Assembly: GCA_013619125.1 (NCBI GenBank)
Contig: JABXKS010000001.1
Location: 62,001 to 126,000 of the forward strand
Origin: Clostridiales bacterium
GTDB lineage: Bacteria; Bacillota; Clostridia; Tissierellales; GPF-1
Direction of reading: 5' to 3'
Length of the DNA: 64,000 bases
Shown: in pieces, positions 35,984-38,152 of the stretch
Layout: the number at the start of each line of letters is the position of its first letter
Position numbering within the stretch: the stretch's first letter is position 1
Notes under the pieces: generated by a model
What the model was told of the DNA's origin: nothing
What the model saw: only the letters and a program-made list of their open reading frames with translations
Databases searched by the model: none
Program-made: the position numbers and the translations under genes

Positions 35984-36913
35984 ATGATTGTTCAAGAAAA
36001 AGTATCGATTGGAATTAGTGCATGCATGTATGGCTCAAAAGTATGGCACAATCGCGAAGGCTGGGATTTGCTAGAAAAACTGGGATGTGAGGCGGATCTA
36101 TATGAGTGGCATCCGATTTGTGCAGAGATCGAAGCGGGGCTTGGTGCGCCGCGAATACCGGTGCAAGTTTTGGACGGGAATGGCATCGATGTGTGGGATG
36201 ATCGCGCACGCGTCATGCAAGGAAACAGTGACATTACGGATCGATTGAAAGCGGCCTGCTTGCAAGCCTTGAAAAGACTGCAAATCGGGGATGTCCATGC
36301 CTTTGTTTTCAAAGAGACTAGCCCAAGTTGTGGGGTGTATCGGGTGTTGGAAACAAGTCGGCAGATCAATCGTCCGCCTGGGGTTTTTGGTGCTCTTTTA
36401 TATCGAGAGGGCTTTTTCTTGATCCCGGCCGAAGATTTGAAGGATCCGGTGAAATGGTGGGATTGGCGCCGTCGGCTTTTTGCCTATCTGTGGCTTCAGG
36501 ATCAAACGATTTTGAGTTTGGTGGAATTTTACGAGGCGTGGCATGAGGTGAAACTATTGTGCCAGGATCTCGACAACGAAAGAGCGCGAGATATGGGTAA
36601 AACATTTGCACAATTCGATAAGAAAACACCAATTGCCAATTTGGAATATCAAAGAGAGCAGATTCTGGATCTTATTCGAAAGCCTTCTGATTTTCCACGA
36701 ATTGCACAAAGTCTTTTAAAAAGTTATTTGTTTTTCTGCAAGCAGTTGAAAATCGAAATCGATGAATCTGCAGAACCAGTGGAAAGTCTAGAGTTGAAGC
36801 ACTTGGTGGAGGAAGTCAGAGCGTTGGAAATTGTGGGCGCAAAACAGGAAATTTTCTTCGGAGGAAGTCCGATTCTTTATCGTTCACAAATTATGGTTGA
36901 ATTTTCTGAATGA
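35984..36913 (+). CDS. DUF523 - DUF1722 fusion protein (309 aa)
   Basis: N-terminal DUF523 domain (1-150: IGISACMYGSKVW... and KETSPSCGVYRV) and C-terminal DUF1722 (about 180-300). This fusion is widespread (for example E. coli YbgA carries the DUF1722 part). Biochemical role unknown; a link to DNA repair or iron-sulfur chemistry has been proposed because of conserved Cys. The ATG at 35984 follows TGGAGGTGAAACC. The longer frame from 35807 crosses the divergent patatin start and is rejected. The promoter of the next unit is inside its last codons. Confidence 0.85.
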   Translation: MIVQEKVSIGISACMYGSKVWHNREGWDLLEKLGCEADLYEWHPICAEIEAGLGAPRIPVQVLDGNGIDVWDDRARVMQGNSDITDRLKAACLQALKRLQIGDVHAFVFKETSPSCGVYRVLETSRQINRPPGVFGALLYREGFFLIPAEDLKDPVKWWDWRRRLFAYLWLQDQTILSLVEFYEAWHEVKLLCQDLDNERARDMGKTFAQFDKKTPIANLEYQREQILDLIRKPSDFPRIAQSLLKSYLFFCKQLKIEIDESAEPVESLELKHLVEEVRALEIVGAKQEIFFGGSPILYRSQIMVEFSE

Positions 36914-36925
36914 TCATGATATATT
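36897..36925 (+). promoter_or_regulatory. Promoter of the rsgA leader
   Basis: TTGAAT (36897-36902), 17 bases, TATATT (36920-36925). Transcription would start near 36932, giving a short leader before the peptide ORF. Confidence 0.65.
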
Positions 36926-36960
36926 AGATTCAAATTCTTCGAGGAAAAGGAGTGATGAAA

Positions 36961-37032
36961 ATGATGAAAATTAATCTTCTCATTGTATCAAGTGAATCCA
37001 ATAAACAACTCACTCCGGAGCGTAAGATTTAA
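36961..37032 (+). CDS. Putative leader peptide of the rsgA attenuator (23 aa)
   Basis: AAGGAG (36947-36952) is 8 bases before ATG 36961; an in-frame ATG at 36955 is too close. The peptide is MMKINLLIVSSESNKQLTPE plus RKI, ending at TAA 37030-37032. Its last codons (37010-37018) form one arm of a possible antiterminator, so ribosome position on this ORF could decide the RNA fold. No homologous peptide is recognised, and coding is inferred only from RBS, start, stop and position. Confidence 0.55.
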   Translation: MMKINLLIVSSESNKQLTPERKI

Positions 37033-37095
37033 ACCTTGAAGAACTGGATCCCTTTGTGAATCCAAAAGCCCGGAGTGACAGGTCCGGGCTTTTTT
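37010..37095 (+). promoter_or_regulatory. Transcription attenuator upstream of rsgA (terminator and competing antiterminator)
   Basis: Terminator: AAAAGCCCGGA (37064-37074) with TCCGGGCTTTT (37083-37093), loop GTGACAGG, T run to 37095. Competing pairing: TCACTCCGG (37010-37018) is fully complementary to CCGGAGTGA (37070-37078), which uses the left arm and loop of the terminator. A small hairpin, TGGAT/ATCCA (37045-37064), lies between. Translation of the leader peptide to its stop would hide 37010-37018 and favour termination; early stalling would free it and allow read-through. Confidence 0.65.
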
Positions 37096-37123
37096 ATGCC
37101 CAAAATTAAGTGGAGGGCACTGA

Positions 37124-38152
37124 ATGAATCATAGAAATCAAAACGAATTCGACAATCAAGCGAATGGGTTGGAACGAAATGATGAAAGTAAAACGGCGCG
37201 TGTGATACGCGTGGATCGAGGCATCTATCACCTGGAAGGAATCAAAGGCATTTTTCTTGCGGAGTTGCGAGGGCGCTTTCAAGAGGAAGCAATCGCGGCT
37301 TCGGATTATCCCGCGGTCGGTGATTATGTGGCGGTTGATCGATTGAATGACAAAGACGGGCATGGGATGATTGCAGCGATCTTGCCTCGAAAGAGTCATT
37401 TTTCTCGCAAGGTGGCGGGAAATCGTCTGGATGAACAGGTGGTGGCGGCCAACATAGATACCGTTTATGTGTGTATGGCTTTGAACCATGATTTCAATTT
37501 GCGCCGGTTAGAGCGTTATCTGACGCAGGCCTGGAGCAGCGGTGCAAGTCCGAAAATTCTCCTCACCAAAGAAGATTTGTGTGACGAGCGAGAGGAACGA
37601 TTGCGGGACGTGCAGGAGATTGCTTATGGCGTTGACGTGTTTATGGTAAGCGCACTAACAGGCGCGGGGATGGATGCTTGGAAAGACTCCCTCCATCCGG
37701 AAGAAACTGGGGTTTTGCTTGGGTCTTCCGGTGTCGGAAAATCGACGTTGATGAATACCCTGTTGGGCATTGAGCATCTGGAAACCCAGGGGCTTAGAAA
37801 TGATGACAAGGGAAGACATACGACGACCTATCGCGAACTGGTTACCCTGCCAAACGGCGCCTATCTGATTGATACGCCGGGGATGCGGGAACTGCAATTG
37901 ATGGATGATGAAGAGGCAAGTAGATCGGTCTTTTCTGAGATTGAAGTATTGGCAAAGCGATGTCGGTTTCGAGATTGCGGACATGAGTCGGAGCCAGGGT
38001 GTGCGATTCAAGCAGCCTTGCACAATGGAGAATTGTCGGAAGAACGCTGGGAGAGCTATCAAAAGATACTTCGGGAACAGCGATTTATGGAGAAAAAGCT
38101 CAAGGAACGGGAAAGGCGCGAGGAGAAAAAGAACGGGAAAAGAAGGAATTAA
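37124..38152 (+). CDS. rsgA: Ribosome small-subunit-dependent GTPase RsgA (342 aa)
   Basis: Circularly permuted GTPase that assists 30S maturation. OB-fold N-terminus (25-100), G4 motif LLTKEDL before the P-loop GSSGVGKS (200-207), switch region RHTTTYRELV, G3 DTPGMRE, and a C-terminal zinc knuckle CRFRDCGHESEPGC. At 342 aa it is longer than the roughly 290-residue YloQ-type protein expected from a prkC locus, and it could be an accessory paralogue. RBS GGAGGGCACTGA. It is preceded by an apparent attenuator, so its expression may respond to ribosome stalling. Confidence 0.92.
   Translation: MNHRNQNEFDNQANGLERNDESKTARVIRVDRGIYHLEGIKGIFLAELRGRFQEEAIAASDYPAVGDYVAVDRLNDKDGHGMIAAILPRKSHFSRKVAGNRLDEQVVAANIDTVYVCMALNHDFNLRRLERYLTQAWSSGASPKILLTKEDLCDEREERLRDVQEIAYGVDVFMVSALTGAGMDAWKDSLHPEETGVLLGSSGVGKSTLMNTLLGIEHLETQGLRNDDKGRHTTTYRELVTLPNGAYLIDTPGMRELQLMDDEEASRSVFSEIEVLAKRCRFRDCGHESEPGCAIQAALHNGELSEERWESYQKILREQRFMEKKLKERERREEKKNGKRRN

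Follow-up and report, generated by a model that had tools for sequence, protein, structure and literature searches.

Ribosome-mediated attenuation governs the vmlR, bmrCD and ermK leaders of Bacillus, where a stalled ribosome gives read-through, and such attenuators have up to now chiefly led to antibiotic-resistance genes, hflXr having been found that way. HflXr of Listeria is a ribosome-GTPase paralogue that is controlled by an attenuator and confers resistance to erythromycin and lincomycin (PMC6310831). One of the two RsgA paralogues of Streptomyces coelicolor (SCO6149/SCO5211) is WblC- and tetracycline-dependent (PMC7157823). Here, we analyse the leader of an rsgA gene in a 64,000-nucleotide (nt) stretch of the genome of a Clostridiales bacterium of the Tissierellales (assembly GCA_013619125.1, contig JABXKS010000001.1, positions 62,001 to 126,000), hereafter the window, whose own numbering we use throughout. 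This leader is very probably a ribosome-mediated transcription attenuator controlling an accessory RsgA paralogue (RsgA2), with the inducer and the role of RsgA2 proposed below. Its parts, including a short leader open reading frame (ORF), are the following:

36897..36925, + strand, promoter-like site: -35 TTGAAT, 17 nt, extended -10 TATATT (motif scan; hexamers and spacing found in congeners)
36935..36944, + strand, 5' arm of an outer stem: 10 pairs with 37034-37043, one of them G-U
36949..36955, + strand, arm 1, the leader Shine-Dalgarno (SD) region GGAGTGA, anti-antiterminator: pairs with arm 2
36961..37032, + strand, leader ORF of 23 codons, MMKINLLIVSSESNKQLTPERKI: ATG at 36961, stop at 37030-37032
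37010..37018, + strand, arm 2, the antiterminator arm TCACTCCGG: in the last third of the leader ORF
37034..37043, + strand, 3' arm of the outer stem: pairs with 36935-36944
37065..37095, + strand, intrinsic terminator: stem 37065-37074 / 37083-37092, T run ending at 37095
37070..37078, + strand, arm 3, CCGGAGTGA: pairs with arm 2 and overlaps the 5' arm of the terminator
37124..38152, + strand, RsgA2, a circularly permuted GTPase of 342 amino acids with the G motifs and zinc-knuckle cysteines in its sequence (PF03193, E 8e-50; TIGR00157 above cut-off)

An earlier note, made from the sequence alone, had located the promoter, the 23-codon ORF with its AAGGAG and a competing pairing of 9 base pairs (bp), and all of them are where it placed them. 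The AAGGAG sits just 5' of the leader ATG, an alternative in-frame ATG at 36955 would extend the ORF to 25 codons, and a TG precedes the -10 hexamer. The terminator and its T run were also described correctly, except that the stem has 10 pairs and not 11; the antiterminator arm, taken for the last leader codons, does lie inside the ORF near its end. Two pairings were absent from that account, namely the 7-bp pairing of arm 1 with 37010-37016 and the 10-bp outer stem. Because these add to the 2:3 pairing and the terminator, the element is a complete 1:2 / 2:3 / 3:4 set. Arms 2 and 3 form nine perfect pairs (duplex -20.6 versus -9.6 +/- 2.2 in shuffles, z = -5.0), the terminator stem ten (-17.5 kcal/mol versus -7.0 in shuffles), and the entire leader folds more stably than shuffled versions (z = -2.9). 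Thus, the locus has the marks of a leader-peptide attenuator: a short ORF with an SD, flanked by promoter and terminator, a terminator 5' of the gene, a 1:2 pairing, and an exclusive, co-varying antiterminator that overlaps the leader ORF.

The 1:2 / 2:3 / 3:4 logic is shared with vmlR, bmrCD and ermK, although those leaders serve ARE-ABCF, ABC transporter and rRNA methylase genes and none of them an rsgA. Another close counterpart is rli80, the leader of hflXr (lmo0762) in Listeria monocytogenes, an antibiotic-induced attenuator that also controls a ribosome-GTPase paralogue and comprises a short ORF, an anti-antiterminator, an antiterminator and a terminator (PMC6310831). The two differ in that rli80 encodes a 14-amino-acid peptide with an RLR arrest motif, whereas we found no RLR, the mark of a macrolide-type arrest leader, in the window peptide, and in that the GTPase is HflXr in one case and RsgA, which acts on the 30S subunit, in the other. 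The leader MMKINLLIVSSESNKQLTPERKI contains no run of cognate codons and its target is a GTPase, so it does not resemble the attenuator of an amino-acid operon. In Streptomyces an accessory RsgA is likewise induced with translation-targeting antibiotics as part of the WblC/WhiB7 response (PMC7157823); there control runs through a transcription factor, while at our locus it would lie in a cis leader at the gene itself.

The protein belongs to the RsgA family, scoring over the curated cut-offs, and on sequence grounds it is an accessory paralogue, since the same genome carries a second, housekeeping rsgA (G000:C2:47129-47911, on a different contig and 36% identical) and the family tree splits into two groups. 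In that protein tree (n=140), a bit-score limit marks 22 copies as housekeeping; 20 of these cluster together, the long copies (RsgA2) form a separate group, and the other two low-scoring copies are divergent and lie near the long group. Among 391 sampled genomes of the class, 75 yielded an accessory-type copy. The suggestion of the earlier note that this could be a stress-induced paralogue is therefore probable, the genome search for a second rsgA having found the housekeeping copy.

The two other species of the genus (G002, locus L010; G001, locus L020) retain promoter, leader ORF, arms and terminator, with identical promoter spacing and almost identical hexamers; promoter scanning by itself yields five such sites versus 4.8 in shuffles, no excess, but this one is conserved in both congeners. 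A C to T change in arm 2 turns one pair into G-U and preserves the pairing, all ten pairs of the outer stem are preserved in both congeners, with G-U changes, and a 12-nt insertion in the G002 leader ORF is in-frame and leaves it open. In G001 the leader is intact while rsgA2 is a remnant of about 370 bp with internal deletions (L020:3001-3374), so the gene must be dispensable there.

Beyond the genus, a DNA search with the window leader across 249 genomes from the order gave no real match, and a scan of genome contigs gave few relatives. Because sequence search fails to align leaders between families, the conserved features are geometry and complementarity; the peptides themselves are weakly conserved between families. 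We assembled 15 transcriptional leaders, three from the genus (one before the remnant) and 12 from seven other families (f2, f6, f12, f14, f15, f18, f39), so that the common architecture is present at 14 RsgA2 loci from eight families plus the remnant leader. All 15 have arm 2 within the leader ORF. Compared with shuffled leaders, the arm 2:arm 3 duplex averages z = -3.7 and falls under p = 0.05 in 13 of the 15, and the arm 1:arm 2 pairing is present in all, with z from -1.3 to -4.9, weak in some (window -1.5). When partners were re-dealt among 13 loci, the pairing weakened from -18.2 kcal/mol with the own partner to -12.2, and 0 of 20,000 permutations were as good (9 of 40,320 with one locus per family). 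Conservation and covariation had been proposed as a check of the attenuator idea: pairing and arms came through it, while conservation of the peptide across families did not. These data also bear on whether the hairpin merely terminates the upstream gene, with everything else due to chance. The upstream stop at 36913 is indeed 150 nt ahead of the hairpin, but the interval holds a promoter-like site and the leader ORF, the pairing co-varies, and rsgA2 genes of several families are preceded by the arrangement although their neighbourhoods are unrelated; conservation already contradicts this explanation, which we regard as highly improbable.

We modelled a translating ribosome as a 31-nt mask around the P site and folded the RNA as made before the 3' arm of the terminator emerges. 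Window RNA was started at the likely start sites 36931 and 36933; beginning at 36926 instead brings in sequence 5' of the likely start, with a misleading dip as the result. With the ribosome in codons 1-12, arm 2:arm 3 has a probability of 0.8-1.0, which becomes 0.00 once the ribosome is at codon 14 or any later codon up to the stop. All 15 leaders are modelled as ON while the ribosome occupies the first codons and as OFF when it nears the stop. If no ribosome is present, arms 1 and 2 pair first (0.98 prior to synthesis of arm 3), and equilibrium then favours arm 2:arm 3. The earlier proposal that a ribosome near the stop masks arm 2 and permits termination, whereas an early hold gives antitermination, is thus supported by the masking models and by the pairing kept across families. 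We propose that the transcript would begin near 36932 and that arm 1, at the leader SD, and arm 2, at the end of the ORF, would pair first. During normal leader translation the ribosome would reach the last third of the ORF and hide arm 2, letting the 3:4 terminator form (off). A ribosome held at the start or within the first dozen codons would instead cover arm 1 and free arm 2, which would pair with arm 3 ahead of arm 4 synthesis, so that no terminator forms and rsgA2 is transcribed (on). The likely natural inducer is an antibiotic that acts on the ribosome, or some other condition in which elongation stalls early; RsgA2 probably aids ribosomes under such stress, by analogy with HflXr.

A survey of 118 RsgA2 upstream regions against 22 short-form, mostly housekeeping, rsgA upstreams revealed further leader types. 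An SD with a short ORF precedes 67% of RsgA2 genes (18% in shuffles) and 36% of housekeeping ones (27%); a terminator precedes 37% (1% in shuffles) and 0%, respectively. A translational leader, with GGAGG in the leader ORF, then CCTCC, then the rsgA2 SD, is present at 29/118 RsgA2 and 0/22 housekeeping loci (0.0 expected by chance), including Paenibacillus montaniterrae (L018), with a variant in Peptoclostridium acidaminophilum (L197). In 28 of the 29, the GGAGG falls within nt 26-41 of an ORF that is 14 to 20 codons long. RNAalifold detects little covariation in this set, the core of which can hardly vary because CCUCC has to pair with two partners. The covariance model of the set, R1, found nothing in the window's own genome, and hence the transcriptional and translational forms are unlike in sequence. 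Type-U leaders, at up to 20 RsgA2 loci (for example L145, L148, L149, L153, L154, L156, L163 and L165), are longer, with several tandem terminators, a leader ORF of about 10 codons whose peptide is conserved (e.g. MTALYEVIVS) and a conserved AACCTTTCGTGAATACTG-like non-coding stretch. They were found only before rsgA2 and had no Rfam match among those scanned. Matches to AACCTTTCGTGAATACTG in genomes lie before rsgA2 or look like chance, viral contigs gave none, and the type-U leader had no match in plasmids.

These leaders raise the question of whether the ORF is incidental and the RNA a riboswitch-type element with a terminator that binds a ligand or protein. Structured leaders, a peptide without arrest motif, and the long type-U leaders with their conserved non-coding motif would fit such an element. 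We nevertheless consider it unlikely, as there is no Rfam match, the loops differ between families, the G002 insertion preserves the reading frame, and the position of arm 2 or of GGAGG within the ORF is so consistently maintained in the transcriptional and translational sets.

Two side observations concern the surroundings of rsgA2. On a Lysinibacillus fusiformis plasmid (L199:2447-3969), a fosfomycin-resistance gene (fosM) immediately follows rsgA2; two plasmid records labelled Stenotrophomonas rhizophila score the same and may be mislabelled. A T-box-like leader, slightly under the gathering score, lies 3' of rsgA2 at L025:3775-3951.

The covariance model also revealed the translational leader before genes for an RNHCP zinc-ribbon protein (longer form, about 140 amino acids; L207, L208, L212, L216, L217) and a GNAT acetyltransferase (L209, L210, L211, L214), and RNHCP lies directly 5' of rsgA2 in two genomes (G426, G008). 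This bears on the feedback raised in the earlier note, in which too few or immature 30S subunits would hold back the leader ribosome and thereby increase RsgA2, which would mature more 30S. RsgA does bind 30S, and the modelled switch is on with a ribosome at the start and first codons, where an initiating but defective 30S would sit. Nevertheless, the leader belongs to the accessory copy, none of the 22 short-form rsgA upstreams has a terminator or the translational pattern, RNHCP and GNAT are not 30S GTPases, and rsgA2 is dispensable in one congener. The idea is weakened and now seems to us rather doubtful; the leader shared with RNHCP and GNAT argues for a common translation-stress or antibiotic signal over simple RsgA autofeedback. 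It is tempting to speculate, with about equal reason to believe and to doubt it, that leader-peptide attenuators of transcriptional, translational and multi-terminator type form a translation-stress regulon over RsgA2, RNHCP and GNAT in Clostridia, reaching Paenibacillus, in which RsgA2 would be an inducible ribosome-rescue or antibiotic-tolerance factor, the 30S counterpart of HflXr.

Separately, directly before a gene for a 103-amino-acid RNHCP zinc-ribbon protein we observed an RNA of about 170 nt resembling the 3' major domain of 16S rRNA, at two loci:

L223:498-666, - strand, 16S-like RNA (E 3e-15)
L222:1230-1387, + strand, 16S-like RNA (E 1e-13)

Relative to positions 922-1376 of the Rfam SSU model, about 270 nt are replaced by a loop of 13-14 nt. 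Similar stretches occur in L220, L221 and L224, and in L219 by eye. This RNA may be a 16S-mimic autoregulatory leader.

Several points weigh against reading the window leader as a ribosome-mediated attenuator. At equilibrium the full-length RNA always folds into the terminator, so the switching has to be kinetic. The arm 2:arm 3 pairing is individually non-significant at L043 and L101, and the terminators used in the pairing tests were chosen by eye. As the leader peptides are not conserved between families, no arrest motif indicates a particular drug. In the survey, the S pattern was defined after looking at the data, and 52 of the 118 RsgA2 loci fall outside all three leader types, 13 of the 52 lacking a leader ORF.

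The mechanism class, ribosome-mediated attenuation, is already known; the target and leader family are absent from Rfam and the literature searched. Rfam 15 cis-regulatory families (T-box, riboswitch, leader) gave no match above the gathering score and include no such family. The earlier note knew of no description of attenuation for rsgA, and our literature search for rsgA with leader peptide or attenuation likewise found no report. The conserved attenuators single out a GTPase subfamily, whose annotation is at present confined to 30S assembly, as a candidate for an inducible factor that protects ribosomes, and suggest a candidate ribosome-stress or antibiotic-tolerance gene undescribed so far. 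Moreover, they connect RNHCP, an uncharacterised protein, with the same response and offer a testable answer to why many Clostridia have a second RsgA.
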